Shown: piece by piece, positions 28,474 to 58,861 of the stretch
Position numbering within the stretch: the stretch's first letter is position 1
How the letters are laid out: each line of letters begins with the position of its first letter
DNA from: Streptococcus pluranimalium
Lineage (GTDB): Bacteria; Bacillota; Bacilli; Lactobacillales; Streptococcaceae
Direction of reading: 5' to 3'
NCBI RefSeq assembly: GCF_002953735.1
Contig: NZ_CP025536.1
Location: 378,001-442,000, forward strand
DNA length: 64,000 nucleotides
Notes under the pieces: model-generated
The model's database searches: none
What the model was told of the DNA's origin: nothing
What the model saw: the letters and a program-made list of their open reading frames with translations, nothing else
Program-made: the position numbers and the translations under genes

Positions 28474-29253
28474 TTAGTCTCCAAAGGCTTCGTGTGCTGC
28501 AACAATTTTTAATTTATCCCAGTCAATTTCTTCTCGTGAATAGCTGTCTAGAAAAATATCGATGTATTTGTTATCAGCTAAATTATAATGGATGGACCAA
28601 ATAGCCCAAAAGATATCAATATGCTTTTCACTATAGCCAGAAAGGCCCCAATCTATGAAGGTTGAGAAAGTTTGGCTGTCTTTTAAAATAATATTAGGTA
28701 GACAGGCATCACCATGTATGAAGGCATTTGTTTCTAACAGATATCCTTGGTCTTGTACTAAGTAAATGGCTTCATCTTTACCTGAGATATTAAAGTATGG
28801 AAGGAGTGCTTTTTGATAGAAAACACCTTTTTGATAGTTGATTTTGCTTGTTTGACGATAAGTATCAAGAAGATTGTCTTGCGGAAAATCCTTTGGTCTT
28901 AATTGATGCAGATCACGCAATGCTTTTCCTAAAATCTTACAGACTGATTCTGGCTGATCCAAAAAAGATGTTGCAGCAGAACCCATTGCTGCCCTTGTCA
29001 GGAGATAGTCTTTGTCGGTACTGATATAATCAATCACCTCAACTCCCATATCATGTGTGAAAAAATAGTGAGTTAATGTTGCTTCTTTGGCAAGTTTTCC
29101 ATGTGCATCAATTTTCAGAAAGAAATCATTACCAACTTTTAGAACCAGTGCTCCAGAATGAGATGATAAATCATAACACTTTTGTTTATTGAGATAAGGC
29201 TGTAATTTGTCGGGGAATTCTTCAATCTTCAGTTTGAATTCAAGATTTTTCAT
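28474..29253 (-). CDS. Aminoglycoside phosphotransferase-like (APH) kinase family protein
   Basis: A 259-residue protein with the APH/ChoK kinase fold. The Brenner-type catalytic loop is HGDACLPN and the metal-binding DFG-equivalent is IDWGLSG. The conserved place ahead of recX suggests a housekeeping small-molecule kinase rather than an acquired resistance gene, but the substrate is unknown. Start ATG 29253 was chosen on homology-like length; the -10 box TGTTATAAT ends only 6 bases upstream, so the mRNA would begin at or near the A of the ATG (leaderless). An alternative TTG start at 29289 with AAGGA would place that -10 inside the coding region. Confidence 0.78.
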
Positions 29254-29259
29254 GCCTTT

Positions 29260-29268
29260 ATTATAACA
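29260..29268 (-). promoter_or_regulatory. Extended -10, apparently leaderless promoter
   Basis: TGTTATAAT on the minus strand (29268-29260). Six bases (AAAGGC) separate the -10 from ATG 29253, so transcription would start at about the start codon. Confidence 0.6.
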
Positions 29269-29313
29269 AAAATGGTAAAATGGTAGCAAAGATTCCTTGA
29301 AAGAAGAGTTGAT

Positions 29314-30279
29314 ATGACTAAAAAAAATAATGATAAGATTGTCGATTTTAGCGACTATTTAGCTGAAAAGGATTTTGAAGAACTCCTCCAAAGTGAATTA
29401 GCTGGTTTTTCTGATGAGGAGTTGGATGAACTTTATGATGATTTGGCATTTGGAGAAGAGTTTGAAGACTTAGAAGGAGAAGCAGCCTTAGGCAAAATGA
29501 GCTATCAAACGCTCAGAGACTTAGAAAGAACGGAAGCTCAGGGGCATGATAGCTGGCTAGCTTCTGAGCCAGTTGGTTGGATAAACTTGGACGAGCGCCC
29601 TTATCTATCCACGAAGATGGAGCTTGCTGTCGTTTATAAGCAGAGTGGTCTTTATCAAAAAGCTTTGACTCATTTTTTAGAGATTTACAATCATGATGAG
29701 GGGGATCGATTAGGTACCCGTTATGAACTGATGGCTATCTATGTTTTGACGTCAAATCACCAAGCAGCCAAAGCTTTATTTGCTAGTCAACCGTATCATC
29801 GAGACGATTTAATGATGGTCATTCCGATGATTATTGCTAATATTTTAGCTGGTAATGATCAAGAAGCTAAGACCCTACTTGATGGCTGGTTATACCGAAT
29901 TGATGGGCTCAAAGAATTTTGTAAAAATCCTGTTATGCCTATGGATGAGATTATGGAAGCAGGAAGTTTAGATGCCTATCAACCTAATAGCATGACAGCT
30001 GTTTATGTTTCTCTCAGTACTTTTTTAGCCATTCTTATCCCATCAAGTCATTACATTATGTCTGTTATCCATGAATTTCTGGAGTTTGAAACTGGGGGGC
30101 CTTTTGTAGAAGACTTGGCCGTTTTAAACAGTGCACAGATAGAGACTTTGTATAATCTTGGTATTGTGACCTTGCAAGATCTTAAAGAATGGACCGAGAA
30201 AGAATTTCTAGCTATCCCTAAAATGGGTCCTGCAACACTTAGGGCGCTAAAAGAGAAGGGAGTGGTATTTCAGTCGTGA
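29314..30279 (+). CDS. TPR-like protein with C-terminal helix-hairpin-helix domain
   Basis: A 321-residue cytosolic protein. After a very acidic N-terminus ([19 protein letters not shown] ... [17 protein letters not shown]) come helical repeats of tetratricopeptide type (about residues 105-190: [20 protein letters not shown]). The last 50 residues ([20 protein letters not shown] then [17 protein letters not shown]) look like a helix-hairpin-helix or RNA-polymerase alpha-CTD-like module. The combination suggests a protein-protein scaffold with a nucleic-acid contact, but no function is known to me. Its stop overlaps the GTG start of rlmD, so it is co-translated with a rRNA methyltransferase. 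Confidence 0.8.
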
Positions 30280-31631
30280 GCACATTACAAGTTAAACAAC
30301 GGATTCCTTTGAAAATCAAGCGTATGGGTATCAATGGCGAAGGGATTGGTTTTTACAAGAAAACCCTTGTCTTTGTTCGAGGTGCCCTTAAAGGTGAGGA
30401 AGTCTTTTGTCAGGTGACGTCTGTTAAGCGTAATTTCGTTGAAGCCAAGCTTCTTGATATCAATAAGAAGTCTAAGTTCCGTGTCGTGCCAGAGTGTCCC
30501 ATCTATGAAGCTTGTGGTGGTTGCCAAATCATGCACCTACGCTACGACAAACAGCTTGATTTTAAGGTGGATTTGCTCAAGCAAGCCCTTAAGAAATTTA
30601 AACCAGCAGGTTTTGAGAACTATGAGATTCGTCCAACATTAGGGATGGATAAGCCGCAACATTACCGGGCTAAATTGCAGTTTCAAACCCGCTCTTTTGG
30701 TGGTTCTGTTAAAGCAGGTCTCTATGCTGAAGGAAGTCATCGACTTGTTTCTTTGGAAGATTGTTTGGTACAGGACCAGTTGACGCAGGAAATCATTAAC
30801 AAGATTACCAATCTTTTGGATAAGCACAAGGTTCCTATCTACAATGAGCGTAAAATTCAGGGAATTCGGACAGTCATGGTTCGTAAAGCAGAAGCCACTG
30901 ACCAAGTTCAAATCATCTTTATTTCGAGCAAGTGGATTAATCTAACGGCTGTTATTAAGGATTTGATTGCAGCCTTTCCACAAATCAAAACAGTTGCCTT
31001 TAACCTTAATACGTCCAAATCCAGTGAGATTTATGGGGCAGAAACGGAGATTCTCTGGGGGCAGGATGCTATTGAAGAGGAAGTTTTGGACTATGGTTTC
31101 CAATTGTCTCCAAGAGCATTCTACCAGCTCAACCCTGAACAAACAGAAGTGCTCTACGGTGAAGCTGTTAAGGCACTCGATGTTAGTCCAGAAGACCACT
31201 TAATTGATGCTTATTGTGGCGTTGGTACGATTGGATTTGCTTTTGCTAAGCAGGTCAAGAGCGTGCGCGGGATGGATATTATCCCAGAAGCCATTCAAGA
31301 CGCCAAAGAAAATGCACGTCGTATGGGCTTTGACAATACCCACTACGAAGCAGGTAAAGCAGAAGAAATCATTCCTAAGTGGTATCAAGAAGGTTATCGA
31401 GCAGATGCCCTTGTTGTGGACCCACCAAGAACAGGTTTAGACGATGCCCTTCTCAAAACCATTGTCAAATACCAACCGAAAAAAATGGTTTACGTCTCTT
31501 GTAACGTCTCAACCTTGGCGCGTGATCTGGTCCAGCTAGCGAAGATTTATCAGGTAGAGTATATACAAAGCGTGGATATGTTCCCGCATACTGCACGTAC
31601 AGAGGCGGTTGTGAAGCTAACGCTAAAATAA
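30276..31631 (+). CDS. rlmD: 23S rRNA (uracil-C5)-methyltransferase RlmD/RlmCD type
   Basis: A 451-residue RumA/TrmA-family enzyme. It has an N-terminal TRAM domain ([21 protein letters not shown]), the iron-sulfur cysteine motif [10 protein letters not shown], the SAM motif [15 protein letters not shown], and the catalytic segment [14 protein letters not shown] with the nucleophilic cysteine, plus the general base glutamate in [11 protein letters not shown]. In streptococci the homologue (RlmCD) methylates U747 and U1939 of 23S rRNA, which influences macrolide sensitivity. The start is GTG 30276, overlapping the preceding stop by four bases (GTGA). Confidence 0.92.
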
Positions 31632-31808
31632 AAGTTCTCCAATCCTTTCCAATTTCAAGGGATTGGCTAAAACGATCTTTCTCCAGATTATTTCACTTCC
31701 GAAATCCCTCAACTCTTGTTTTTTAGTTAGGAGTTTACAACAGTCTTCTACGAGATTTTTGCAAATATATCGCTGTTAATTAAGAGATTTCTTTACTTCA
31801 ATCAAAGT

Positions 31809-31817
31809 TGTTACAAT
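31809..31817 (+). promoter_or_regulatory. Extended -10 promoter
   Basis: TGTTACAAT (31809-31817) lies 21 bases before ATG 31839, leaving room for the ribosome binding site AAGGAG. Bases 31632-31808 hold no gene; an imperfect hairpin around 31637-31665 may terminate rlmD weakly. Confidence 0.5.
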
Positions 31818-31838
31818 AACCCATGTTAAGGAGCCCTT

Positions 31839-32465
31839 ATGTTTTCTCAAATCAATCACTATTTACTCTATCAAGGTCTTAAGTACGTTAAACCAGAAAA
31901 ATCTGGTACAGAAGCAGATGCGATGAGGGCATTTAAGGCACAGGGACAAGCTGCGCGTGCTGAGATGAGGAACTTATCTAAAGCTTTGTCTCAAGACTTG
32001 CCTGGTTTTAAAATGGATCGTGTCAGCAACTGGGCCAATCAGGCTCAAATAGGACGACCACATTTTTGGACTTATTTCCATGCTATTGATGATAACTATG
32101 ATGAGGTTGGGTTTGCCATTCGCCTCTATGGTCAACAGGATGATTTTGGTATCTCGGTTGAAGTTAGTTTCATTGAACGTAAGAAATCAGATGAAACACT
32201 GGCTAAACAGGCGAAGGTTTTAGACGTTCCGATAACTGAGCCACTCTATTATTGGGTTCAAGAAAATGGTGAAAGTCATCGGGAAGAAGGAACGGAAAGC
32301 AATAGACAAAAATTGCTAGAGGAGCTGGCTGACGGGAATATTAGAAAAGTTTTAGTTAAAAAGGATATCCCAATGACAGAAACGATGACTATCCAAGAGT
32401 TGGTTCCAAAACTGCTAGAAGCTTTTAGAGATCTATTTCCTTATTATGAAGCTACAAAAAAGTGA
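31839..32465 (+). CDS. Conserved hypothetical protein (HI_0552-like)
   Basis: A 208-residue soluble protein with mixed alpha/beta composition. The pattern RVSNWANQAQIGRPHFWTYF and the following YGQQDDFGISVEVSFIERK recall the HI_0552/G6PD_bact family, whose databank name (glucose-6-phosphate dehydrogenase) is not supported by any dehydrogenase motif that I can see. AAGGAGCCCTT is a clear ribosome binding site. It stands alone, ending in a terminator that shares the stop codon. Confidence 0.75.
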   Translation: MFSQINHYLLYQGLKYVKPEKSGTEADAMRAFKAQGQAARAEMRNLSKALSQDLPGFKMDRVSNWANQAQIGRPHFWTYFHAIDDNYDEVGFAIRLYGQQDDFGISVEVSFIERKKSDETLAKQAKVLDVPITEPLYYWVQENGESHREEGTESNRQKLLEELADGNIRKVLVKKDIPMTETMTIQELVPKLLEAFRDLFPYYEATKK

Positions 32466-32488
32466 GTTCCGTTTGGAGCTCACTTTTT
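32456..32488 (+). terminator. Rho-independent terminator (convergent with serS)
   Basis: A 14-bp stem AAAAAGTGAGTTCC/GGAGCTCACTTTTT (one G-T pair) with loop GTTT. The stop codon TGA at 32463-32465 lies inside the stem. Read from the other strand it can also end serS. Confidence 0.9.
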
Positions 32489-32503
32489 GAACGTCATAAG
32501 GTT

Positions 32504-33787
32504 TTATTTCGGTGCAATCACTTCGGCACCACCCATGTATGGACGAAGCACATCTGGAATGGTGACAGAACCATCTTCATTTTGATAATTTTCAAGAATG
32601 GCAGCGACTGTACGACCAACTGCAAGACCAGAGCCGTTTAGCGTGTGGAGCAATTTAACCTTACCATCAGCTTCGTCACGATAACGGATTTGCGCACGAC
32701 GAGCTTGGAAATCCTCTGTATTTGAACAGCTTGAAATTTCACGGTAAGCATTTTGAGCTGGAATCCAAACTTCCAAATCGTAAGTTTTAGCAGCTGAGAA
32801 GCCCATATCTCCAGTACAGAGAGCTAAAACACGGTATGGCAGCCCAAGTTTTTGTAGGATATTTTCAGCGTTAGCTGTCATTTCTTCTAATTCATTGTAA
32901 GACTCTTCAGGTTTAGCAAATTTCACCATTTCAACCTTGTGGAACTGGTGGAGACGGATGAGTCCACGAGTGTCACGACCAGCTGAACCAGCTTCAGAGC
33001 GGAATGAAGGGCTCATGGCTGTAAACTTGATTGGCAATTCTTTACCATCGATAATTTCGTTACGGTAGTAGTTGGTAAGAGGAACTTCAGCTGTTGGGAT
33101 AAGAACGAATGGACGTTCTTCATCATTGATTTCAAAGGTATCTTCCTTGAATTTTGGATAATTACCAGTTCCAAACATAGAATCACGATTGACCATGTAA
33201 GGCGTGATCATTTCTTGATAGCCTTCTTTAGCATGCTCATCCAACATAAAGTTATAGAGGGCACGTTCTAAGCGAGCACCTAAGTTACGGTAGAAGAGGA
33301 AGCGAGTTCCAGTAACTTTTGCCCCACGTTCCCAATCAAGGATACCCAAATCTTCACCAAGATCCCAGTGCGCTTTTGGTTCAAAATCAAATTCACGAGG
33401 CGTTCTCCAACGACGAACTTCGAGGTTTTCTTCTTCGTCAGCACCCACAGGAACAGAGTCGTGTGGTGTGTTTGGCAAAATAGTGATAATAGCTGTTAGC
33501 TTATCATCAATTTCAGCCAATTCAGCGTCAACAGCCTTGATATCAGCAGAGACTTTTTGCATAGCTGCAATCTGTTCAGACGCATCTTCTTTATTACGTT
33601 TGGCCTGGGCGATTTTATCTGAAGCAAGGTTACGCTCTGCTTTTAATTCTTCAGATTTTGTTAAGAGCTGACGGCGTTTAGCATCTAAATCTTTTAACTC
33701 CGTTAACGTTTCGGCAGCAACACCACGTGTCGCTAATTTTTCCGCAACGTTATCAAAGTCGTTACGAATACGTTTAATATCTAACAT
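32504..33787 (-). CDS. serS: Seryl-tRNA synthetase SerRS
   Basis: A 427-residue class II synthetase. The N-terminal antiparallel coiled-coil arm (about residues 30-105), which grips the long variable arm of tRNA-Ser, precedes the catalytic domain with motif 2 ([21 protein letters not shown]) and motif 3 ([17 protein letters not shown]). ATG 33787 follows AGGAGG; an in-frame ATG 30 bases earlier has no ribosome binding site. A T-box leader controls it. Confidence 0.97.
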
Positions 33788-33985
33788 AGAAACCTCCTGT
33801 ATGGTAGAAAAAAACACAACCTGCTTGTCGTTGGAGCGCTAGCTCGCGCGGTTCCATCCAACTTCACAGATTGTGCACTTCATTAATATCAGTAATAATA
33901 ACACGGTAGAATTTCATAAGGCAAAGAGATCTGCTCACAGCAACCGCAGACTTTCTGAACAATCAGCATTACTACTTATCCGTTG
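33788..33985 (-). promoter_or_regulatory. T-box leader of serS
   Basis: The conserved T-box sequence appears on the minus strand as AAGTTGGATGGAACCGCG (33864-33847), followed by an arm and a terminator hairpin with CCAAC/GTTGT and a run of seven T. Upstream, the stem I region has the typical AGAAAGTCTGCGGTTGCTG block, followed by ATCTCTTTGCC, where UCU (33929-33927 or 33927-33925) is the likely serine specifier. Uncharged tRNA-Ser would stabilise the antiterminator. Confidence 0.85.
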
Positions 33986-33990
33986 GAGTT

Positions 33991-34019
33991 ATTATACACA
34001 AAAGAGAAGCAGGTGTAAA
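33991..34019 (-). promoter_or_regulatory. Promoter of serS
   Basis: TTTACA (34019-34014), 17 bases, TATAAT (33996-33991) on the minus strand, immediately ahead of the T-box leader. Confidence 0.85.
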
Positions 34020-34055
34020 CCATAAACCAAGGATTTTTCTTACTTTCTTGAATTA

Positions 34056-34064
34056 TGATAAAAT
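34056..34064 (+). promoter_or_regulatory. Extended -10, apparently leaderless promoter
   Basis: TGATAAAAT (34056-34064) ends 6 bases before ATG 34071, with no purine-rich ribosome binding site between. Confidence 0.55.
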
Positions 34065-34070
34065 AAGTGC

Positions 34071-35138
34071 ATGGAAAAAAGAATATATAATGCAGGAATT
34101 GATTTTTTAAGAATTTTTGCCATGTTTATGATTGTTGTCACCCATGTGTTAGGTAAAGGTGGAGTCCGTGATTCAGTTGCCGGCACAGTTGACGTTCACT
34201 TTTTACAGACTTGGATCATTCAAGCCAGTGTTTATGTTGCAGTTAACTGTTATGCTCTAATCAGTGGTTATGTTGGTTTTCGTTCCAACTTTAAATATTC
34301 TAAAGTAGTAAATTTATGGCTCCAAGTAGCCTTTTATTCGATTGGGATAACCTTATTTTTCTTGATTTTGGGTAAGGATATTGGTTCCAATGATTGGTTG
34401 GCTGCCTTTTTCCCAGTCATTACGGGTCAATATTGGTACGTGACCGCTTATTTTGGCTTGATGTTGACCATGCCCTTCTTCAATATTGCCCTACCGAGAA
34501 TGGAGTTGTCTGATCTTGCCAAGATGATTTTTACAGGTTTTATCGTCTTCTCATTACTACCAGTATTACTGGATACCAGCGTTTCGGAGTTTTCATTATC
34601 CAAAGGCTTTAGCATGACTTGGTTAATTCTCTTGTATATTGCTGGTGCATTCTTGGCTCGTATCGATTTGAAAAAGTATAATAAGCCTTTCATTTTAATT
34701 GGTATTTATGTTTTATCCATTGCAGCAACCCTTATTTTGAAGTACACCGTCAGTGAGAAGTGGTATTGGTACACCTCACCAACCATAAGCTTAGGAGCTC
34801 TGGCTTTATTTATTTTATTCGTCAATCTGAAAATTTTACCATCTGGAAAATTAGTAAGCTTCATTAAGTTCTTTGCACCTGCCACTTTTGGTGTTTACCT
34901 TGTTCACTTACATCCTTTGGTGGTCAAATTCGCTATGCGAGACTTTGCGGAAAATTTTGTGAATCAATCCCCACTTGTTTTCCCGTTTGCTATTCTAGGT
35001 GTTAGTCTCTTAATTTTCTTTGGATCAATTTTAATTGAAAAAGTGAGAATCTGGCTCTTTAAGACACTTCAAGTTTCACAAATGACAACAAAAATTGATG
35101 ATTGGTTGATCTTTAAAAATAAGGTCAAAAAAATATAA
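34071..35138 (+). CDS. Membrane acyltransferase (acyltransferase 3 family)
   Basis: A 355-residue protein with about ten membrane segments. The N-terminus (GIDFLRIFAMFMIVVTHVL) carries the R and H residues conserved in acyltransferase-3 proteins such as OafA and the streptococcal O-acetyltransferases; the histidine in TM1 is thought to be catalytic. It may acetylate a surface polysaccharide or teichoic acid, the acceptor being unknown. It stands alone between serS and manO and ends in a very strong hairpin. Transcription probably starts at the ATG itself. Confidence 0.85.
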   Translation: MEKRIYNAGIDFLRIFAMFMIVVTHVLGKGGVRDSVAGTVDVHFLQTWIIQASVYVAVNCYALISGYVGFRSNFKYSKVVNLWLQVAFYSIGITLFFLILGKDIGSNDWLAAFFPVITGQYWYVTAYFGLMLTMPFFNIALPRMELSDLAKMIFTGFIVFSLLPVLLDTSVSEFSLSKGFSMTWLILLYIAGAFLARIDLKKYNKPFILIGIYVLSIAATLILKYTVSEKWYWYTSPTISLGALALFILFVNLKILPSGKLVSFIKFFAPATFGVYLVHLHPLVVKFAMRDFAENFVNQSPLVFPFAILGVSLLIFFGSILIEKVRIWLFKTLQVSQMTTKIDDWLIFKNKVKKI

Positions 35139-35189
35139 GACTAATAAAACCCAAGTTTCACAAAGGAGACTTGGGTTTTATTAGTCTTA
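35136..35189. terminator. Bidirectional terminator between acyltransferase gene and manO
   Basis: A perfect 20-bp inverted repeat (35137-35188 region; arms AAGACTAATAAAACCCAAGT and its complement) with a 12-base centre. Both stop codons touch or overlap it. T-rich stretches on both strands make it work both ways. Confidence 0.88.
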
Positions 35190-35546
35190 ACGACCTTTTA
35201 ATTTTTGACCGATAATTTGCAGCAAGGTTGGGAGCTTAACGACATTCTCATTGCCGACTTTTTCTCTAGCGATTTTTAGAATTTTTCCAGAATCTTTTGA
35301 TGAAAATAGAAATTTTCCAGAATCTGTAAACACTTCAAAATGGCGACTAACTTTTTTTCCACTGACATTAGCTCCGATTTGTTTGATACTTTTCCAAGGA
35401 ATTTGAATATAGTCTTCAACATTACGATCGCTATAGTATTCCAAAGAAACATCGCCAATCAAAAATTTCCCAACCTTTCCTCCCATACCGAGGTAGGATA
35501 CACCTGTCGTTTGTAGTAACACTTCTTTATTTAAGGATTGTGCCAT
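35187..35546 (-). CDS. manO: ManO, DUF956 family regulator of the mannose PTS
   Basis: A 119-residue soluble protein of the DUF956 family that accompanies Man-type PTS operons in Firmicutes and is proposed to modulate their expression. Recognisable parts are NKEVLLQTTGVSYLGMGGKVG, IQIPWKSI and the C-terminal RHFEVFTDSGKFLFSSKD, a GRAM/PH-like beta layout. AGAAAGG precedes ATG 35546; the earlier ATG at 35573 has no signal. It is 252 bases from manN and separated from it by a hairpin and a repeat, so partial read-through or a separate promoter is likely. Confidence 0.88.
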   Translation of the reverse strand: MAQSLNKEVLLQTTGVSYLGMGGKVGKFLIGDVSLEYYSDRNVEDYIQIPWKSIKQIGANVSGKKVSRHFEVFTDSGKFLFSSKDSGKILKIAREKVGNENVVKLPTLLQIIGQKLKGR

Positions 35547-35621
35547 ATTAACCTTTCTATTTAGAGGATTCACTGATTATAGAACAACTACTATATTGCC
35601 CTTTTGAGCGAATCAGTTTAG

Positions 35622-35730
35622 TGATACTCATTGAAAATCAAAATGTGATCTTGTCAAGTTTACCATCATGAACTTCAGTTCTATCTGAGTCTCCTTTCCC
35701 AGTCAGAATTTGATTTTCGTCTAGTATTAA
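35622..35730. repeat. Small inverted-repeat element (RUP-like) between manO and manN
   Basis: Perfect 10-bp inverted arms GAAAATCAAA (35633-35642) and TTTGATTTTC (35710-35719) extend outward with partial matches (TGATACT versus TAATACT read inward), giving ends of about 21 bp and a total near 109 bp. Size and the end pattern GATACTCnnnGAAAATC resemble the RUP elements described in Streptococcus pneumoniae. No coding capacity. Confidence 0.5.
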
Positions 35731-35763
35731 ATGCTGTTATGCTATGCTTTATATCTTATCATA

Positions 35764-35795
35764 AATAAAAGAGTTTCCAAGAGGAAACCCTTTTT
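35764..35795 (-). terminator. Terminator of manLMN
   Basis: GGGTTTCC/GGAAACTC (one G-T pair) with loop TCTT on the minus strand, just after the manN stop, followed by TTTTATTT. Confidence 0.8.
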
Positions 35796-35798
35796 AGT

Positions 35799-38887: not shown

Positions 38888-39700
38888 TTACAGAAAAAGT
38901 TTTTCTAGTTGTCTAGCAACTCCGTCTTCTTCATTAGTATAGTTGAGTTTTTCGTCGGCAAATGGCAGGAGAACCTGACTAGCATTTTTCATAGCATAAC
39001 CTGATTTAGCCAAATGGAGCATCTCAGTATCATTATGTTCGTCTCCAAAAGCAATTAAGTCATCGGGGGTTTTATGATATATCGTTAACAGATACGATAG
39101 GGCAAAAGCCTTATTAATACCTTTAGGTGATACTTCAAGGATATTTAAGGGGCCACCCCAAGAATCAATTTCGATTTCGTTTTTAAAGTGTTCCCTCATC
39201 CTGTTAGCAAGGCTTATTTTATCAGCAGCACGAGATTGCATGAGTAGTGCATTGGGATTTCGTGTGATTTTAGTTGGTTCCAAACGCATTCTTTCGGTAA
39301 TTCTGTCAACACCAAACAAGGCAGGTGTTATGCGTTCGGGATAATCTAAGGTAACATAGAAATTTTTGCGATATTCACTGGCAATAAAATCCATTTCAAA
39401 AAAGTCACTGAACTTAAGAATATCGAAAAGATAAGTTTTATCTAATGTTACCGACTGCTCGTATTCCCATTTTTTACCGGGTAAGTGTGTCAAAGAACCA
39501 TTAAAGGTAATCATTGGCGTATCAAGTTCTAGGCGTTTATAGTGCTCAACAGCCATGCGGTAAGGTCTTCCTGTAGCAATAACAACGTGATGCCCTTGCT
39601 CACGGACTTTTTTTATCGTATTGACAGTATAATCTGAGATGGTATTGTCACTATGAAGTAAGGTTCCATCTAAATCTATAGCAATTATTTTTGTAGTCAT
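38888..39700 (-). CDS. Cof-type HAD-IIB family sugar-phosphate phosphatase
   Basis: A 270-residue haloacid dehalogenase hydrolase. Motif I IDLDGTLL has the nucleophile D9 and the acid/base D11; motif II is VVIATGR; motif III/IV near the C-terminus is NKAFALSYLL ... IAFGDEHNDTEML. Cof enzymes dephosphorylate sugar or cofactor phosphates. It lies directly upstream of manL on the same strand, a pairing common in streptococci, and could act on PTS sugar phosphates. ATG 39700 has no ribosome binding site; TGTTATAAT ends 6 bases upstream, so the mRNA is probably leaderless. Confidence 0.9.
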   Translation of the reverse strand: MTTKIIAIDLDGTLLHSDNTISDYTVNTIKKVREQGHHVVIATGRPYRMAVEHYKRLELDTPMITFNGSLTHLPGKKWEYEQSVTLDKTYLFDILKFSDFFEMDFIASEYRKNFYVTLDYPERITPALFGVDRITERMRLEPTKITRNPNALLMQSRAADKISLANRMREHFKNEIEIDSWGGPLNILEVSPKGINKAFALSYLLTIYHKTPDDLIAFGDEHNDTEMLHLAKSGYAMKNASQVLLPFADEKLNYTNEEDGVARQLEKLFL

Positions 39701-39706: not shown

Positions 39707-39715
39707 ATTATAACA
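39707..39715 (-). promoter_or_regulatory. Extended -10, apparently leaderless promoter
   Basis: TGTTATAAT on the minus strand (39715-39707); six bases (AGCTCT) then ATG 39700. Confidence 0.62.
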
Positions 39716-41899: not shown

Positions 41900-42268
41900 T
41901 GCCTATACTAGCTGTTAATCTCAAGTCATCGTTTTTGATGTAAAAGCGTGTTTGTAAGGCGTTCTATAGAGTGAAATATGACCTTTTATCTCTCTTGGTT
42001 AGAAATGGTAGGATAAGTCGTTTACTTGCCTTTTTGATAATTTGAAAAAAAGTTGGAAAGGTTAGATAAGCTCTATTAGTGAGTTTAACTAGCACATCGT
42101 CAGACTAATGTTGCCTGTTGTGATAAAGAATCAAAACGGATGAAAGCAAGATAAGATGTTAACATCTACCGTGCTTTATTCGTTTTTTTGTACTCCTAAA
42201 GGAGACATTTGCCCTATGATTTTTCTTATTTTGAATGACGATTGCTTCATGACAAAGGTTAAGTGCTG
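41900..42268. other. Intergenic stretch before tsaE, nothing recognised
   Basis: About 370 bases with short broken frames only. No terminator with a clear T run after the permease gene and no known RNA motif were seen. Confidence 0.4.
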
Positions 42269-42277
42269 TGATATAAT
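42269..42277 (+). promoter_or_regulatory. Extended -10, near-leaderless promoter of tsaE
   Basis: TGATATAAT (42269-42277) with seven bases (TAATTTT) before ATG 42285 and no ribosome binding site. Confidence 0.58.
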
Positions 42278-42284
42278 TAATTTT

Positions 42285-42722
42285 ATGTATAAGGTAACTA
42301 ATGAAGCAGAGCTCATTGCCCTGGGAGAAAAAGTAGGAAGGCTTCTTGAAGCGAGTGATATTCTGATTTTGACGGGTGATCTGGGTACTGGAAAAACGAC
42401 TTTTACAAAAGGACTTGCCAAGGGACTTGATGTTGAACAAATGATAAAAAGTCCTACCTACACTATTGTTCGTGAGTACGAAGGTAGACTTCCTTTATAT
42501 CACCTAGATGTCTATCGCATTGGTGATGATCCTGATTCTATAGACCTAGATACTTTTTTATTTGGTGATGGTGTTACTGTCATTGAATGGGGAGAAATGG
42601 TTGAGGATCACCTTCCAGACGGTTATCTCAAAGTTGAATTATCTCTTGATGGACAAGGTCGTCAATTGAAGATGACTGGAAATGGTACTAGGTACGAAAA
42701 ATTATTAAATGAGTTAAAGTAA
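42285..42722 (+). CDS. tsaE: tRNA threonylcarbamoyladenosine ATPase TsaE
   Basis: A 145-residue P-loop ATPase needed with TsaB, TsaC and TsaD for t6A37 formation on ANN-decoding tRNAs. Walker A is GDLGTGKTTF (31-40), followed by SPTYTIVREYEG and the Walker B-like YHLDVYRIG, and VIEWGEM near the C-terminus. The start is ATG 42285, matching family length; a longer frame back to 42156 has no start signal and contains the promoter. It is followed after 2 bases by a GNAT gene and then an LCP gene, a conserved streptococcal trio. Confidence 0.93.
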   Translation: MYKVTNEAELIALGEKVGRLLEASDILILTGDLGTGKTTFTKGLAKGLDVEQMIKSPTYTIVREYEGRLPLYHLDVYRIGDDPDSIDLDTFLFGDGVTVIEWGEMVEDHLPDGYLKVELSLDGQGRQLKMTGNGTRYEKLLNELK

Positions 42723-46078: not shown

Positions 46079-46732
46079 ATGAAAAACAAACAGACTTATC
46101 TTTTGAGAGCATCTATTGCTCTTGTTTTATTCATGATACTTGGTTATACAGTCAAGTTTTATCCTGAAACATTGGTTACCTTTGATGAAGCCATCCAAAC
46201 AGCAGTGCGTGGTTCTCTACCAGCATCAGCCACTTCTTTCTTTAGTGGCGTCACGGTTTTGGGCAATACCTTAACCTTTGTTTTGATGCTACTTGTTCTA
46301 GTTGCCTTCATTTACTTTGTGAAAAAATGGAAAATGGAAGCTATTTTCCTGGGGATTACAGGAGCTCTGTCTGGTCTCTTGATTGTCGGTTCTAAGTATC
46401 TTTATGGGAGAGCCAGACCAAGCCTAGAACATTTAGTATCGGCTCATGGTTTTTCATTTCCTAGTGGTCATGCGACGGGGTCGATGATGATCTATGGTTT
46501 TATGCTTATCATTGCTCATCAGCGAATCAAATCAAAAGGTTTGAGAATACTAGTAGAAGCTTTAATAGCACTCTTGATTGCCTTGATTGGTTTATCACGT
46601 ATCTACGTAGGTGTTCATTACCCAACAGATGTTCTAGGAGGTTTTATCTTAGGATTTGCTTGTCTAAATATCATTTACCCTTTTTATGATCAGAAACGCT
46701 TTGAATCTCGTTTTCAAGGAAAACAAAAATAA
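46079..46732 (+). CDS. PAP2-family membrane phosphatase
   Basis: A 217-residue phosphatidic-acid-phosphatase-type protein with about six membrane segments. The three catalytic motifs are complete: KYLYGRARPS (about residue 107), PSGH (about 125-128) and SRIYVGVHYPTDV (about 173-185). Likely substrates are undecaprenyl pyrophosphate or phosphatidylglycerol phosphate; sequence alone does not decide. The mRNA appears to start at the ATG. Confidence 0.92.
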   Translation: MKNKQTYLLRASIALVLFMILGYTVKFYPETLVTFDEAIQTAVRGSLPASATSFFSGVTVLGNTLTFVLMLLVLVAFIYFVKKWKMEAIFLGITGALSGLLIVGSKYLYGRARPSLEHLVSAHGFSFPSGHATGSMMIYGFMLIIAHQRIKSKGLRILVEALIALLIALIGLSRIYVGVHYPTDVLGGFILGFACLNIIYPFYDQKRFESRFQGKQK

Positions 46733-50905: not shown

Positions 50906-50911
50906 AATCCT

Positions 50912-51404: not shown

Positions 51405-51803
51405 ATGCTTCACCACGTTGAGATTTATGTCAGTGATCTGGCTCGCAGCCGTGTCTTTTATGAATATTTGCTCCCGCAATTTGGATACGAACTCTACCAA
51501 GACTGGGCTCAGGGCTTTTCTATGAAAAAAGCAGAGCAGTATATCGTCTTTGTCCAAACACCAACAGCCTTCCTTGAAGCTGGTTACCACCGTTGCCGCA
51601 CAGGGCTCAACCATCTAGCCTTCCACGGAGGCAGTCGAGAAGAGATTGACCAACTTCGCAAGGGCTTGCTGGCCAGAGGTGTTACACTCCTCTACGATGA
51701 CCGTTATCCTTTTGCAGGAGGAGAGAACCACTATGTCCTCTATTTTGAAGATCCGGATGGGGTGAAGATAGAGGTAGTGGGGGAAGGAGAAGAAGAAAAA
51801 TGA
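51405..51803 (+). CDS. Glyoxalase/bleomycin-resistance fold (VOC) protein
   Basis: A 132-residue vicinal-oxygen-chelate protein with the two beta-alpha-beta-beta-beta modules expected. Conserved positions include the metal-ligand-type H in MLHHVEIYVSDL, H in LNHLAFH and the E in YFEDPDGVKIEVV. The reaction is unknown. AGGAGGGTAAC precedes ATG 51405. The stop overlaps the next start by four bases (ATGA), so the two are translationally coupled, and both lie between a valine T-box and valS. Confidence 0.87.
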   Translation: MLHHVEIYVSDLARSRVFYEYLLPQFGYELYQDWAQGFSMKKAEQYIVFVQTPTAFLEAGYHRCRTGLNHLAFHGGSREEIDQLRKGLLARGVTLLYDDRYPFAGGENHYVLYFEDPDGVKIEVVGEGEEEK

Positions 51804-53083
51804 AAAGAACCAAACTAACAATTGTTTTAATTCTTGTATTTATAGTATTTCTTATTCTACTACCATTCTTAGCAGAAATGAATGTGCTGGGAACTCCATT
51901 AAAATGCCTGAAGTCATATTTCTCATCAGATAGCAACAAAGAGTATTTTGAAGTTGTACTGTCAGCAATCGTAATTTTGACAACTTTTATTCTGTTTTAT
52001 TGGCAAAATACAATAGAATCACATAATAAAAAGAGGGAATTAAAGGAAGAAAAAGAAAAACAAGAGAAGCTATATTTAGAGCAACGTGAACGCGAACGTG
52101 CACTTGTGCGACCGCTATTTTTAACGGAATTACAAGAACAGAATTCAGCAATTAGATTGTTCATCAGAGAAAGTACTCCTCTTACTAACATTACAGTCTA
52201 CTATCAAAATGTAGAAGATGAAAGTTTTAAAGAGGAATTTGTCGGAAATGCTGTTTCTGGCGATTATATTTTTAGATTTAATTCTGATAAACTTGAGTCA
52301 GCTATCATCGAGTGTAGAACTTATTTAGATGAAAATATTTATTTTCAATATCACGTTGGAAACAATTTGCTTCACTACAGAATAGTTGATGGAGAAGATT
52401 TAAATTATATCAGAGAGATACTAAAAAGACGTATTTTAAATGATAGTATTGAAAATAACTTGAGTCATATTATAGAAATATATAATATTCAATTACAGCA
52501 TTCAGTTTATGAATCAATTTTTTTCAATAAGTTTATAGAATTTTTCTCAAGTCACAAGCAATATTGGAGAATATCAAAAGAAGATAAGCTACTTAGATTA
52601 TCTGTAATACTGGGAGAAGATGATATTGAGATTTCCTTGAGCCGTTCCATTGGATTAGATAGTAAGCACGACTATGCCCAAACTCCAGAGATATTTGTTG
52701 AATTATTGGAGGTAATAAATAAGTATTTAAAAGATTGTTGGTATACGACTTGTGAGGAAGCTGAACAAGAGCGATACTATTTCATAGGCAATATAAGAAA
52801 CTACCAGGGAACAGAAATAGGAAGCTATGTTGAGCGATTTGAAAATGAAATGATTAACCGCAAACTGATAACTCAATACATAGATGATTTGATAACATAT
52901 TTGCAAAAAACTAAACAAATGGTTGATTTTCCTCTTAGAATTGTTGAAGTTTATTTAAACAAGTATGTGACTATTTCTAAAGAAAGAGTGGAATATCCAA
53001 ATGAAGTTAAACATGTTAAAGAGCAAATTAGGAATGACTTAAGAAAAGTGTTTAGTAAATATATTTTAAAAGGTAATGAATAA
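51800..53083 (+). CDS. AT-rich two-TM, coiled-coil protein of unknown function
   Basis: A 427-residue orphan. Two membrane segments (about 7-27 and 52-71) are followed by a charged coiled coil (about 75-103, HNKKRELKEEKEKQEKLYLE) and a cytosolic domain of about 320 residues, rich in Ile, Asn and Tyr, with no catalytic motif I recognise. The layout of a short membrane anchor plus soluble domain is common in phage-defence and signalling proteins. Base composition is markedly AT-richer than the flanking glyoxalase and valS genes, a sign of acquisition. It overlaps the glyoxalase gene and ends 15 bases before valS. Confidence 0.75.
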   Translation: MKRTKLTIVLILVFIVFLILLPFLAEMNVLGTPLKCLKSYFSSDSNKEYFEVVLSAIVILTTFILFYWQNTIESHNKKRELKEEKEKQEKLYLEQRERERALVRPLFLTELQEQNSAIRLFIRESTPLTNITVYYQNVEDESFKEEFVGNAVSGDYIFRFNSDKLESAIIECRTYLDENIYFQYHVGNNLLHYRIVDGEDLNYIREILKRRILNDSIENNLSHIIEIYNIQLQHSVYESIFFNKFIEFFSSHKQYWRISKEDKLLRLSVILGEDDIEISLSRSIGLDSKHDYAQTPEIFVELLEVINKYLKDCWYTTCEEAEQERYYFIGNIRNYQGTEIGSYVERFENEMINRKLITQYIDDLITYLQKTKQMVDFPLRIVEVYLNKYVTISKERVEYPNEVKHVKEQIRNDLRKVFSKYILKGNE

Positions 53084-53098
53084 AAGAAAGGACCCCCC

Positions 53099-55753
53099 AT
53101 GTCAACAAAAGAACTATCACCAAAATACAACCCAGCTGAAGTAGAGGCTGGACGTTATCAATCTTGGTTGGACCAAGATGTTTTCAAACCATCAGGTAAT
53201 CCTGATGCCAAACCTTATTCTATCGTTATTCCACCGCCTAATGTCACTGGTAAGTTGCACTTGGGACATGCTTGGGATACGACTTTGCAAGATATTATCA
53301 TTCGTCAAAAACGCATGCAGGGCTTTGATACGCTCTGGTTGCCAGGGATGGACCATGCTGGTATTGCCACTCAAGCTAAGGTTGAGGAGCGTTTGCGTGG
53401 AGAAGGTATCACACGTTATGATTTAGGACGTGAAAAATTCCTTGACAAAGTTTGGGAATGGAAGGACGAGTACGCAGCAACCATCAAGGACCAATGGGGT
53501 AAGATGGGAATTTCTGTCGATTATTCTCGTGAACGCTTCACCCTCGATGAAGGTTTGTCAAAAGCTGTTCGTAAGGTCTTTGTAGACCTCTACAAAAAAG
53601 GCTGGATTTACCGTGGTGAGTTTATCATTAACTGGGACCCAGCAGCTCGCACAGCTCTTTCTGATATCGAAGTTATCCACAAAGATGTGGAGGGTGCCTT
53701 CTACCACATGAATTACATGCTTGAAGATGGTTCACGCGCCCTTCAAGTGGCAACAACTCGTCCAGAAACCATGTTTGGTGACGTTGCGGTTGCGGTTAAT
53801 CCAGAAGATGACCGTTATAAAGACTTGATTGGTCAAAACGTTATCTTGCCAATCGTCAACAAAGCTATCCCAATCGTTGCAGATGAGCATGCGGACCCAG
53901 AATTTGGTACTGGTGTCGTGAAAATCACACCGGCTCATGACCCCAATGACTTCTTGGTTGGTCAGCGCCATGATTTGCCACAAGTTAACGTCATGAACGA
54001 TGATGGTACCATGAATGAACTAGCTGCTGAATTCGTCGGTATGGACCGCTTTGAAGCTCGTAAGGCAGTAGTGGCTAAGCTGGAAGAACTTGGTGCCCTT
54101 GTCGAGATTGAAAAACGTGTGCACTCAGTTGGTCACTCTGAGCGTTCAGGCGCAGTAGTTGAGCCACGCTTATCAACGCAATGGTTCGTTAAAATGGATC
54201 AATTGGCTAAAAATGCCATTGCCAACCAAGATACTGATGACAAGGTAGCATTCTACCCACCACGCTTCAATGATACCTTCATGAGCTGGATGGAAAATGT
54301 CCATGACTGGGTTATTTCTCGCCAGCTTTGGTGGGGGCATCAAATCCCAGCTTGGTACAACGAGAATGGTGACATGTATGTTGGCGAAGAAGCCCCAGAA
54401 GGTGACGGATGGGTGCAAGACGAAGACGTTCTTGACACTTGGTTCTCATCAGCCCTCTGGCCTTTCTCAACCATGGGCTGGCCTGATACAGACTCAGCTG
54501 ACTTCCAGCGTTATTTCCCAACCTCAACCTTGGTAACGGGATATGACATCATCTTCTTCTGGGTGTCTCGCATGATTTTCCAATCTCTTGAATTCACCGG
54601 ACGTCAACCATTCCAAAACGTTCTCATTCATGGTCTTATCCGTGACGAAGAAGGTCGCAAGATGTCGAAATCTCTTGGTAACGGTATCGACCCAATGGAT
54701 GTTATCGAGAAATATGGTGCGGATGCCCTGCGTTGGTTCCTTTCAAACGGTTCTGCACCGGGTCAAGACGTGCGTTTCTCTTACGAAAAAATGGACGCCT
54801 CTTGGAACTTCATTAACAAGATTTGGAACATTTCACGCTACATCCTTATGAACAACGAAGGACTGGACTTGGACACTGCTGCTGACAAAGTTGCGCAAGT
54901 GGCTAGCGGTCAGGCTGGTAATGTCACCGATCGTTGGATTCTCCATAACCTCAATGAAACCATCGCTAAAGTCACTGAAAACTTTGATAAGTTCGAGTTT
55001 GGTGTGGCGGGGCACATCCTTTATAACTTTATTTGGGAAGAGTTTGCCAACTGGTATGTTGAGTTGACTAAGGAAGTGCTTTATAGTGACAATGAAGAGG
55101 AGAAAGTGGTAACGCGTGCCGTTCTGCTCTATACACTTGATAAGATCCTCCGCTTGCTTCACCCAATCATGCCGTTTGTAACGGAAGAAATCTTTGCCCA
55201 GTACGCTGAAGGGTCAATCGTAACAGCTGACTACCCTGTGGTTAATGAAGCTTTTGACAATGCTGACGCCCATAAGGGTGTTGAGAGCTTGAAAGACTTG
55301 ATTCGTGCCGTTCGTAATGCGCGTGCGGAAGTCAACGTAGCCCCATCAAAACCAATCACTATCTTGGTCAAAACAAGTGACGCTGAATTGGAAAGCTTCT
55401 TCACGTCAAACGTCAACTACATCAAACGCTTCACTAATCCAGAAACTTTGGAAATCTCAGCTGATTTGACAGCGCCAGAACTAGCCATGTCAGCGGTTAT
55501 CACAGGAGCTGAAATCTTCCTCCCGCTGGCCGACCTCCTCAACGTTTCCGAAGAATTGGAACGCTTGAACAAGGAGCTAGCCAAATGGCAGAAAGAACTC
55601 GACATGGTCGGCAAAAAACTCAGCAACGAACGCTTCGTTGCCAACGCCAAACCAGAAGTCGTCCAAAAAGAACGCGACAAACAAGCCGACTACCAAGCTA
55701 AATACGACGCGACAGTGGAGCGTATCAGAGAGATGGAGAAGTTGGTAAAATAA
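53099..55753 (+). CDS. valS: Valyl-tRNA synthetase ValRS
   Basis: An 884-residue class Ia synthetase. The HIGH motif appears as [14 protein letters not shown] (about residues 43-56), the KMSKS motif as [11 protein letters not shown] (about 519), the editing domain lies between, and the C-terminal coiled-coil tRNA arm is complete ([20 protein letters not shown]). AAAGAAAGGA precedes ATG 53099. Codon choice is of the biased, highly expressed type. The T-box expected directly upstream is instead about 2 kb away, in front of two accessory genes. Confidence 0.97.
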
Positions 55754-55766
55754 GCTAATACATACA

Positions 55767-55794
55767 AATACCCAGCCTAGAAAGGTTGGGTATT
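55767..55794 (+). terminator. Hairpin after valS
   Basis: AATACCCAGCC/GGTTGGGTATT with loop TAGAAA, stable (one G-T pair) but with hardly any T run, so termination may be partial. Confidence 0.5.
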
Positions 55795-55795
55795 G

Positions 55796-55804
55796 TGGTA
55801 TAAT
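55796..55804 (+). promoter_or_regulatory. Extended -10 promoter of the ApeA-like gene
   Basis: TGGTATAAT (55796-55804) just after the valS hairpin; the leader contains CGGAGG before ATG 55839. Confidence 0.6.
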
Positions 55805-55838
55805 GAATGAGAAAAAATCAAGTTTACGGAGGTATATT

Positions 55839-57200
55839 ATGAGTAATTTAGGTATTTATAGTGGAAAATTTAATTATGGAAATACTAAAGATGAATATCA
55901 CGGAAACTTACAAGTGGATAAAATAAATAATATTATCACACTAACTCTTACAATATCTACTTCAGATTTAAATACTGTACCACTCTTTCCTCTGGAAAGC
56001 AAAATAAATATTATTTATGGAAAACTTTTAACTGGTGAAACAGTTATGCTTTATGATTGTTATGTTGTAAGTGAATCCAATCATAAAAATTTTACCCAAA
56101 AGAGTTTGAACTATACGACACAAGTAATTAGGGCTAGTTATTTATTTGAAACAGATATAATGTTAGGGAAAGAAGGTTTACTAGTGGTCTCAGCACAAGT
56201 TGATTTTGGTAATATTCTTGAGTGGGCAGATTTATGTCATTACACATGGGAAGGAGATAGCACCACTTGGAATCCAGTGTGGATTGAGAAAGAGCCGATA
56301 AGTGTTAATATACTCGATAACTTAGGAATTACGTTTATTCCAAGTAGAGTTAGTGGAATGTTAGATAATTACCAGGAAAAATTTGAGTTGAATCAAAAAG
56401 TTTACACAAAGTTCCAGTATGCAGAACCAGTAGAGTGGGAAGTGTTTTTAGAGGATATAAAGAAAGTAGAGCATTTAATAGGTTTTGGAATACAGAGAAA
56501 AGTTCGATTTGAAGGTATAAGATGTCAATTATTTAACAATGATTCTAGGTATGAGTGTTATAATGATGAAGTAACATTAGGAATTGGGAAAATAGAAAAT
56601 ACTGACAATCAACATCCATATTTTTTCTTATACAATTTGGAAACAATTATTGAAGAGGACCATTTTTCAAAGTGGATTTACTATTATGGGAAGTTACAGC
56701 CAATTCTAGATTTATATTTTCTGATGTTAGATAATCAATATTATCTGACATCAGAAACAGTATTTTTAAATATGGTTCAAGCGTTAGAAACTTTTCATGC
56801 TCGATTTATTACAGATGATGTTAAGGAGTATATTGCTCGGTCTAAATCTCTCGTTGAGAGCTTACATGATTATGAAGGTTGGTTAAGCTTTCTTTGTGAT
56901 GATAGACAACAAAGAGAGCGCTCAATTTATTTGAAAAGTAGATTGGCAGATTTAATGTTTGCGGATGGACAATATTTAGAATTAGATCCTAAATATATAC
57001 AGAAAATAGTAGATACAAGAAATTATTATACGCATTATAATCTTAAAAAATTGGGGAAAAGTTTTACAAAGTCGGAATTACCAATTGTAAATTATAGATT
57101 AAAAATATTGTTAGAATTTCATATCCTAAAATTAGTAGGATTTGATGAAATTAATCTTAAAAAGAAATATTTTGAAAGTATTCGTAAATTGAGAAAATAA
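55839..57200 (+). CDS. apeA: ApeA-like HEPN-domain protein (probable abortive-infection defence)
   Basis: A 453-residue protein with a beta-rich N-terminal region (IYSGKFNYGNTKDEYHGNLQ, then SKINIIYGKLLTGETVMLYD), the layout of the ApeA N-terminal domain, and an all-helical C-terminal region of ApeA-like HEPN type. The HEPN ribonuclease motif R-x4-H is RNYYTH (R394, H399). In other bacteria ApeA alone protects against phages by abortive infection. ACGGAGG precedes ATG 55839; the frame opens at 55803 inside the promoter. The gene is AT-rich with codon use unlike valS, suggesting transfer. Assignment is from recognition of domain pattern only. Confidence 0.78.
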   Translation: MSNLGIYSGKFNYGNTKDEYHGNLQVDKINNIITLTLTISTSDLNTVPLFPLESKINIIYGKLLTGETVMLYDCYVVSESNHKNFTQKSLNYTTQVIRASYLFETDIMLGKEGLLVVSAQVDFGNILEWADLCHYTWEGDSTTWNPVWIEKEPISVNILDNLGITFIPSRVSGMLDNYQEKFELNQKVYTKFQYAEPVEWEVFLEDIKKVEHLIGFGIQRKVRFEGIRCQLFNNDSRYECYNDEVTLGIGKIENTDNQHPYFFLYNLETIIEEDHFSKWIYYYGKLQPILDLYFLMLDNQYYLTSETVFLNMVQALETFHARFITDDVKEYIARSKSLVESLHDYEGWLSFLCDDRQQRERSIYLKSRLADLMFADGQYLELDPKYIQKIVDTRNYYTHYNLKKLGKSFTKSELPIVNYRLKILLEFHILKLVGFDEINLKKKYFESIRKLRK

Positions 57201-57715
57201 TTCGATAAGGAGAATTTATTGCTGATCGAGAGATTTTCTATTCTTTTTTACGCATTTATCGACTGTAATGGTTTACTATGGCTAACATCTAGTGAGTCTC
57301 GTTTTGGTTTTCTCTGACAATCTCTTTCTTATTTTTGAGAGACAGCCTAAAAGAGTCACCTCCAAGCAACTTTTAACATTCAAAGCGATGAGAATTTTAG
57401 TTTTAAAAATTTTGAATTTATTTAACCAAATAGCTAGTAATTTGATAACTTTGAAGAATTTATTTCTGTCTTCTAGCTTAGCGATAGACTTGGTAAGTTA
57501 GGTGGCAGAGATAACATAACTTTGTATCTCAAGAACATTTTAAGACGATGTCAAACTATTTATTGACTGACTTTTTCCTCTGTCTAGTTTTGTGTAATTT
57601 ATTCACTTCTAAGTTAAAAGTAATCAATCTAAAATTAATTCTACAATTTTTATAAACAATCTTAATAGTTAAGGGAATAAATGTTTTTTAATTTATATAA
57701 ATAGTCAGATTTTTT
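57201..57715. other. AT-rich intergenic stretch in the accessory region
   Basis: About 515 bases. A 69-codon frame at 57292-57501 starts with GTG, has no ribosome binding site and a low-complexity product, so I do not call it. No RNA motif or terminator with a clear T run was recognised. Confidence 0.4.
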
Positions 57716-57724
57716 TGTTATAAT
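57716..57724 (+). promoter_or_regulatory. Extended -10, apparently leaderless promoter
   Basis: TGTTATAAT (57716-57724), six bases (ATAAGT), then ATG 57731. Confidence 0.6.
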
Positions 57725-57730
57725 ATAAGT

Positions 57731-58861
57731 ATGAAAAAAAGAGAACAATTAAAAATATATTCTAGAAAAAATAATCACATCCATAGAGATAAGAAAAAGA
57801 AATTAAAAGGAATTTTAAAAAGAATATTTTCTGTATTAGTTTTACCAGTTATAATCTCGTCAATGATTCCAATAGTTACGAATTTAATCCATACTTTGCA
57901 TGATGATATTAAAATAAATTCAATTACTGTTAGAGATGCCCCTAGAATTATTGGTGATTATATAGTTAATGAAGCTGATCAAAATAACCAATTTTCGAAT
58001 CATATAATTAATGATGTTCATTTTTCTGGAGAAAAGGCCGTTACAGTTGATTCTATAATGATAAAAAATGTTAAATTTTCTAATTTTGAATTTAGTGACC
58101 TAGTGGCGCATTATGGTTTTAACGATAAAAGTCAAACTTTTGATGCATTTATAATGCAAAATGGTAATAAAAATGTAGATGAGACTTATCACTTGAAAAT
58201 TAGTAATGTAAATATTAATTCGAAGGATAAGGAAATTTCAAAATACTCCTCTAATGTCCGATTAAATAGTGGTGATATTAGAAAAATTTTTAGTATAAAT
58301 TTGAACAAAGACTCAATTTTCAAAGAAATGAAAAAACAGTTAAATCAAGACGATTTGATTTCTTTAGACATTCAAAATTCTAAGGGGAACTCCAAAGGAA
58401 AAAAAATATTACAATATGATGCTAAAAATAATAAATTCATTTTTCCACCAACAGGTGCTGCATCTGGAGGAGGTAATATTGACGAGATATTATTATTTAA
58501 AATAAATTCGTCTAAAAAGAATTATACTAAAATTGTTTCCGAAACTATCGATAAAGATTCGAGAAAATTGTCTTTCAATCTATTGTTTAATAAAACTGCA
58601 CATGTTGATTATGATATTTATCTATCCTATCAGATGACTTCAATTAAATCAAAATCTGAAGAAAATCACAAATCTATAGATATTCGCGTACCTCATTATA
58701 TAATATACGGTAGTCCAATTTCACAAGATAATTCTGTCTACTATCAATTTATGATAAAAAAAAAATTATTGACAGCAACTTATAAACAGATGAAAATTTT
58801 TAACCCTGATTTATTATATACTGTTGAAGATACGGAAAAATTATTTAGAGTCAGAAAATAA
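57731..58861 (+). CDS. Very AT-rich membrane-anchored protein of unknown function
   Basis: A 376-residue orphan. A lysine-rich start (residues 1-30) precedes a single membrane segment (about 32-52, IFSVLVLPVIISSMIPIVTN); the rest is hydrophilic, beta-rich and rich in Asn, Lys, Ile and Ser, and by the positive-inside rule should face outward. No motif recognised. The gene is the most AT-rich in the window and sits between the ApeA-like gene and the GC-rich ogt gene. It begins six bases after a -10 box. It could be a defence or surface protein; I do not assign one. Confidence 0.7.
   Translation: MKKREQLKIYSRKNNHIHRDKKKKLKGILKRIFSVLVLPVIISSMIPIVTNLIHTLHDDIKINSITVRDAPRIIGDYIVNEADQNNQFSNHIINDVHFSGEKAVTVDSIMIKNVKFSNFEFSDLVAHYGFNDKSQTFDAFIMQNGNKNVDETYHLKISNVNINSKDKEISKYSSNVRLNSGDIRKIFSINLNKDSIFKEMKKQLNQDDLISLDIQNSKGNSKGKKILQYDAKNNKFIFPPTGAASGGGNIDEILLFKINSSKKNYTKIVSETIDKDSRKLSFNLLFNKTAHVDYDIYLSYQMTSIKSKSEENHKSIDIRVPHYIIYGSPISQDNSVYYQFMIKKKLLTATYKQMKIFNPDLLYTVEDTEKLFRVRK

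Follow-up and report, generated by a model that had tools for sequence, protein, structure and literature searches.

We analyzed a stretch of 64,000 nt from Streptococcus pluranimalium (NZ_CP025536.1, 378,001-442,000; G+C 38%), hereafter called the window, in which six genes start closely behind a -10 promoter box. The arrangement consists of an extended -10 box of the type TGnTATAAT, a gap of 6 or 7 nt, and the start codon ATG. An earlier note on this DNA had proposed that these genes belong to a class with leaderless mRNAs, and all six arrangements were found where it had placed them, five at gap 6 and the one at 42285 at gap 7. The boxes and the corresponding coding sequences (CDS) are located in the window as follows:

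29260..29268 (-): extended -10 box TGTTATAAT, gap 6 (29254-29259), then ATG at 29253
28474..29253 (-): predicted leaderless CDS, APH-family phosphotransferase-like (kinase-like) protein, 259 aa
34056..34064 (+): -10 box TGATAAAAT (one mismatch), gap 6, then ATG at 34071
34071..35138 (+): predicted leaderless CDS, acyltransferase-3 family protein, 355 aa (PF01757)
39707..39715 (-): extended -10 box TGTTATAAT, gap 6, then ATG at 39700
38888..39700 (-): predicted leaderless CDS, Cof-type HAD-IIB hydrolase (HAD), 270 aa (TIGR00099)
42269..42277 (+): extended -10 box TGATATAAT (exact), gap 7, then ATG at 42285; -35-like ATGACA 17 nt upstream
42285..42722 (+): predicted leaderless CDS, TsaE (t6A tRNA modification ATPase), 145 aa
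46064..46072 (+): extended -10 box TGCTATAAT, gap 6, then ATG at 46079
46079..46732 (+): predicted leaderless CDS, PAP2-superfamily protein, 217 aa (PF01569)
57716..57724 (+): extended -10 box TGTTATAAT, gap 6, then ATG at 57731
57731..58861 (+): predicted leaderless CDS, orphan protein, 376 aa

TsaE was named via a relative (L140) matching TIGR00150 (TsaE), and the orphan protein starting at 57731 had neither an NCBIfam nor a Pfam match at the cut-offs used. At all six sites the start codon is ATG, the box ends 6-7 nt before it with no Shine-Dalgarno (SD) site in between, and the base directly 5' of the ATG is C or T. We consider it very probable that the arrangement gives rise to leaderless mRNAs, both in the class as a whole and in the majority of the six genes, with transcription starts predicted from the sequence.

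Frequency and spacing of the arrangement

The exact pattern TGnTATAAT-N6-ATG occurs four times in the window compared with 0.01 matches expected, and none of 100 dinucleotide shuffles reached four. The looser pattern TGnTAnAAT-N6-ATG yielded six matches against 0.36 expected, one of which (48525) opens 12 codons only. A wider scan of the window (up to two mismatches, gap 6 or 7, length of the open reading frame (ORF) at least 60) resulted in 12 candidates, comprising the six genes of the earlier note and six others. Five of the latter (20172, 29935, 43660, 57863, and 36398(-)) are ATGs in-frame within longer ORFs, and the remaining one, 59561, carries a GGAG inside the gap and overlaps the preceding ORF.

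Within the whole S. pluranimalium genome (2.07 Mb, single contig), the exact gap-6 pattern was matched 24 times and its reversed control not once. Frames of at least 65 codons are opened by 23 of these matches; the remaining one (L019) has no ORF and is located within a tRNA gene, which is part of a cluster of rRNA and tRNA genes. At gap 7, 13 matches were detected (reversed control 1), ten of them opening frames of at least 145 codons, and three (L130, L133, and L136), open for only 8-15 codons, were excluded as members. Among the ten counted, L125 and L132 are doubtful because an A precedes the ATG and, in L132, an RNA-binding domain starts at residue 8. Extension of the gap-6 count to the genus showed the exact pattern to be present in 59 out of 59 Streptococcus genomes, with a mean of 23.4 matches per genome compared with 0.78 in the control. 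The genome-wide count, the scan of related streptococci, and the comparison with a background that the earlier note had called for all come out in favor of the predicted leaderless class, as does a peak at gaps 6-7 described below. Chance, i.e., -10-like strings luckily preceding ATGs in AT-rich DNA, could draw on the G+C content of the window, at which TATAAT-like strings are common, and may still account for single sites such as 57731. As the source of the class, chance or composition is ruled out by the shuffles and the reversed-pattern control. With the genus-wide excess and the conservation of the arrangement across species in addition, we regard it as an exceedingly improbable explanation.

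The spacing between box and start codon was examined in 464 kb of the own genome, namely the window and 20 further stretches, requiring an exact box, an ATG, and an ORF of at least 80 codons. This revealed 13 sites at gap 6 and four at gap 7, none at gaps 0-5 and 8, and zero to two at each of the gaps 9-30. In 1.53 Mb around tsaE of 80 relatives, with identical N-termini collapsed, 49 sites were counted at gap 6 and 29 at gap 7, the included tsaE and HAD sites making up much of both peaks. Here, seven sites were found at gaps 0-1, none at gaps 2-5 and 8, and nine in all at gaps 9-17, followed by a second rise at gaps 27-30, where SD-led leaders fit.

The base preceding the start codon and the start codon itself add to this pattern. 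A pyrimidine precedes the ATG in 23 out of 24 own-genome matches at gap 6 (the exception being the match in the tRNA gene) and in 11 out of 13 at gap 7, as well as in 81 out of 107 tallied matches from five other streptococci and in 35 out of 43 from one Lactococcus-type genome; outside the family, the tally is 137 out of 225. Replacing ATG by GTG gave no excess over the reversed control in the 59 genus genomes (97 versus 102 matches), against the many-fold excess of the ATG pattern in the same genus. A promoter merely lying near a gene would have no need of an ATG. Published start sites of S. agalactiae show about 70% of the promoters initiating at a single nucleotide, an average start six nucleotides beyond the -10 box, and A as 63% of the starts (PMC4448216). 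This distance fits gaps of 6-7 nt to approximately one base, depending on counting.

A selection acting only on the compactness of promoter and gene, and thus on transcription, would also place boxes close to start codons, the short leader then being translated conventionally. Close divergent promoters do occur, e.g., at 209933(-)/210028(+). However, gaps of 8-17, corresponding to leaders of about 1-11 nt, are represented by only nine distinct sites among the relatives compared with 78 at gaps 6-7, and the missing excess of GTG starts is likewise at odds with compactness alone. Leader lengths in L. cremoris are bimodal with none of 4-14 nt (PMC10986495). The spacing spectrum presented here parallels this distribution, which was, in contrast, measured by Rend-seq and in another genus. 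Taken together, we judge compactness highly improbable as the sole object of selection.

As a side observation from the GTG matches, TGTTATAATTTTCATGTG was found nine times in a single streptococcal genome (G013), along with one close variant, and hence probably belongs to a repeat.

Conservation of the sites and choice of the start codon

The tsaE site (42285) was followed through 80 loci, S. suis and S. sanguinis each being represented by several strains or closely related species. In 78 of them, an in-frame ATG is preceded, at gap 6 or 7, by a box with no more than one mismatch, and none of these 78, which contain 63 distinct 40-base upstream sequences, has an SD of five or more bases. The two exceptions are one Lactococcus with an SD and one Bacillota metagenome bin. 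Gap length and ATG are kept across the loci and the bases of the gap vary; the box hardly changes, which partly reflects how the loci were selected. Column profiles suggest that a -35-like element and the box are displaced jointly by one base when the gap-6 group is compared with the gap-7 group.

For the HAD gene (39700), the leaderless box was identified in 26 out of 52 loci, none of which has an SD of five or more bases. The other 26 comprise 13 loci with an SD of this length, two with a four-base SD, and 11 with neither. Orthologs thus vary between leaderless-type and SD-led starts. The kinase-like gene (29253) carries a box with zero or one mismatch at gap 6 in 12 out of 13 full-length loci (own locus included), eight of the 12 having TGTTACAAT at this gap; this count omits two weak partial matches (L181, without alignment, and L182) and keeps one locus (L179) with an internal stop. 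The one-mismatch box of the acyltransferase gene (34071) recurs at gap 6 in six out of ten loci having a match. Including PAP2 (46079), at least some support from relatives is available for five of the six sites, the prediction for 57731 being drawn from its own sequence.

Three of the genes (29253, 39700, and 42285) also have in-frame starts farther upstream, at which automatic annotation may begin. For the proteins starting at 29253, 34071, 39700, 42285, and 46079, alignments with at least two relatives each begin at the first residue, which backs the ATGs that the earlier note had taken as starts of the three genes in question.

Several observations weigh against the leaderless reading, either of the class or of individual sites. 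If one mismatch is allowed in the 464 kb of own genome, the counts at gaps 6 and 7 increase to 18 and ten, and the noise increases as well (five at gap 1, four at gap 10, and eight at gap 28). Raw plus-strand counts ignoring ORFs rise only mildly, to eight and seven out of 95 at gaps 6 and 7; therefore, the ORF condition matters. The 11 HAD orthologs with neither signal lack a gap-6/7 box and also any SD of four or more bases. The PAP2 arrangement is present in only five of the 30 loci examined (own locus included; 59 genomes matched) and is missing in its closest relative within the 80-locus set (L025). On account of this low frequency, it may represent a young or clade-limited trait. The orphan at 57731 has no usable ortholog: among 197 genus genomes, six weak, distant relatives were found, four of which were aligned and none of which has the arrangement. 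Finally, an in-frame ATG at 42216 lies upstream of tsaE behind an SD-like AAAGGAG, making an extended form conceivable in this strain.

The latter point, together with the upstream in-frame starts at 29253, 39700, and 42285, also speaks for a scenario in which the promoters are real and the true start codon lies elsewhere, at an SD-led ATG upstream or at a start downstream behind an SD. Against the upstream variant, alignments with relatives begin at the proposed first residue of all three proteins, and the frame ahead of tsaE is closed at a distance of one codon in the nearest relative and of no more than 23 codons in 56 of the 78 loci, leaving the SD-led start at 42216 unsupported by relatives. 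A downstream start would leave unexplained why ATG occurs at gaps 6-7 while GTG stays at control level. We therefore consider a start codon elsewhere very unlikely. Irrespective of this, the ATG of the interval 42216-42284 (+) could mislead gene callers into a 23-residue extension of TsaE.

Proposed leaderless initiation and its counterparts in streptococci and related genera

Fixed spacing, preference for ATG, a preceding pyrimidine, lack of an SD, and conservation across species at most sites are the properties of these genes that a leaderless mode of expression would account for. Housekeeping sigma-factor promoters with an extended -10 box would be placed such that transcription by RNA polymerase begins with the A of the start codon. 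The resulting mRNA would begin with 5'-AUG, having neither a leader nor an SD site, and a pre-formed 70S ribosome would bind directly to this 5'-terminal AUG, the general leaderless mechanism of the literature, as put forward in the discussion of the S. pyogenes study (PMC6431027). The six genes would then be part of a leaderless class that spans the genome and is typical for Streptococcus and for Lactococcus-type genera.

Such a class has been described in transcript maps. In S. agalactiae, 78 leaderless mRNAs (8%) were recorded, all with AUG and 90% beginning at its A (PMC4448216), and S. pyogenes has 67 (8.6%), 54 of them common to S. agalactiae and 39 also to S. pneumoniae (PMC6431027). 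These sets stem from other species and are likened to the present genes as a class, not gene by gene. For S. pneumoniae D39, 70 out of 768 operons are leaderless, and a pbp2A reporter was efficiently translated in leaderless form, unchanged by an added ribosome-binding site (PMC6212727). The PBP2A-type gene of the S. pluranimalium genome (L003), one of the 24 matches at gap 6, shares this arrangement; it is a streptococcal PBP2A match over the first 501 aa only and thus below the full-length cut-off. In contrast to the starts predicted here, the 5' ends in D39 were determined by Cappable-seq. L003 forms a divergent pair of leaderless-type starts with L002, a gene encoding an RluA-family pseudouridine synthase (C1:209933(-) for L002 and 210028(+) for L003), with about 80 bases between the boxes.

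For L. cremoris, a share of approximately 13% leaderless is quoted from earlier work (PMC10986495), and transcript maps of two enterococci show less than 1%. The statement of the earlier note that leaderless translation is rare in Firmicutes is not supported here, considering that the three streptococci reach 8-9% and L. cremoris about 13%, versus less than 1% in the two enterococci. A survey from 2011 interpreted an in silico TA-like signal, consisting of TATAAT and a TG peak before the start codon, as marking leaderless genes (PMC3160421), the same signal as seen here. Within Lactobacillales, it assigned the TA signal to the Lactococcus-Streptococcus clade and to Oenococcus-Leuconostoc, not to Enterococcus or Lactobacillus, and measured switching between TA and SD signals within Streptococcaceae. 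In addition, leaderless genes were reported as more common in COG A (RNA processing and modification) and rarer in COG J (translation) (PMC3160421).

The taxonomic range of the exact gap-6 pattern in our data broadly agrees with the clade placement of this survey (PMC3160421). Within the same family, the means of four further genera reach 64.2 (g49), 49.0 (g55), 45.8 (g56), and 21.8 (g50), the first three probably being Lactococcus- or Floricoccus-like, and those of five other genera (12 genomes, several incomplete) range from 0.6 to 6.0. Other families of the order average 2.9 versus 1.4 in the control (128 genomes), and the wider phylum 3.5 versus 1.2 (128 genomes). The arrangement is already well known in streptococci and lactococci. 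The finding is real and falls within a class described in transcript maps, to which the six genes add new predicted members. It supplies further predicted leaderless genes and start-codon corrections in a species near S. thoraltensis and S. hyovaginalis, the closest tsaE relatives, and the spacing, the pyrimidine before the ATG, and the lack of GTG allow recognition of the class from sequence.

Encoded functions and neighboring genes

The functions encoded by the 33 predicted leaderless genes of the S. pluranimalium genome (23 at gap 6, ten at gap 7) were annotated by NCBIfam at E <= 1e-3 for 30 genes (six of the 30 without match), by Pfam for L125 and L132, and via the relative for tsaE. An actual or possible role in RNA modification was assigned to ten of them (eight on a strict count): an RluA-family synthase, an RsmF-type methyltransferase, a PrmC/TrmN-like methyltransferase, RlmB, RlmH, RsmH, TsaE, TruB, an RlmK/RlmI-like methyltransferase, and TruA. 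The PrmC/TrmN-like protein (L017) is a weak member, with PrmC as best and TrmN as third NCBIfam match. Repair-type proteins among the 33 are PolA, UvrC, RecG, MutS2, and TatD. As controls, 40 random SD-led genes with at least 60 nt upstream were drawn, of which one (tsaE from an alternative start) was dropped. The remaining 39 were scanned at E <= 1e-30 (13 without match), a more stringent threshold at which control genes may be overlooked, and contained one RNA-modification gene (MnmM) and one Ogt-type repair gene; PNPase, RNase III, DnaA, and XerS are also present and were counted neither as modification nor as repair.

The comparison gave 10/33 versus 1/39 on the loose count (p = 0.002), 8/33 versus 1/39 if only 1e-30 matches are considered (p = 0.009), and 15/33 versus 2/39 after adding repair genes (p = 6e-5), with functional categories chosen after the list was seen and cut-offs differing between genes and controls. 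Most bacterial rRNA-modification enzymes are classed in COG J. In the Lactococcus-type genome G251, the bias was not significantly repeated (3/29, p = 0.31; with repair 6/29, p = 0.065), these counts being a lower bound from 30 of 43 matches taken, of which 29 are open for at least 60 codons, 20 were NCBIfam-scanned, and nine were judged, if at all, by similarity search. A bias of the Streptococcaceae leaderless class toward rRNA- and tRNA-modifying enzymes, perhaps also DNA-repair proteins, is therefore treated as a lead only, and we rate it as rather doubtful. If present, enzymes of ribosome and tRNA maturation would be made via SD-independent initiation, possibly linking the state of the ribosome to the supply of its modifying enzymes. 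Should it hold in species with mapped starts, it would offer a testable physiological reason for a class that the literature consulted describes and does not explain.

Regarding the gene neighborhood, the earlier note had called the six genes mostly single. The ORF map agrees for four of them, and the description fails for 42285, where tsaE heads three closely spaced genes, followed by a GNAT and a LytR-type gene, and for 29253, where a further gene begins 2 nt past the kinase-like gene (28474..29253):

27695-28471 (-): RecX gene

The RecX gene is probably co-transcribed with the leaderless kinase-like gene. In the Lactococcus-type genome G251, RecX itself is preceded by the leaderless arrangement (L146).

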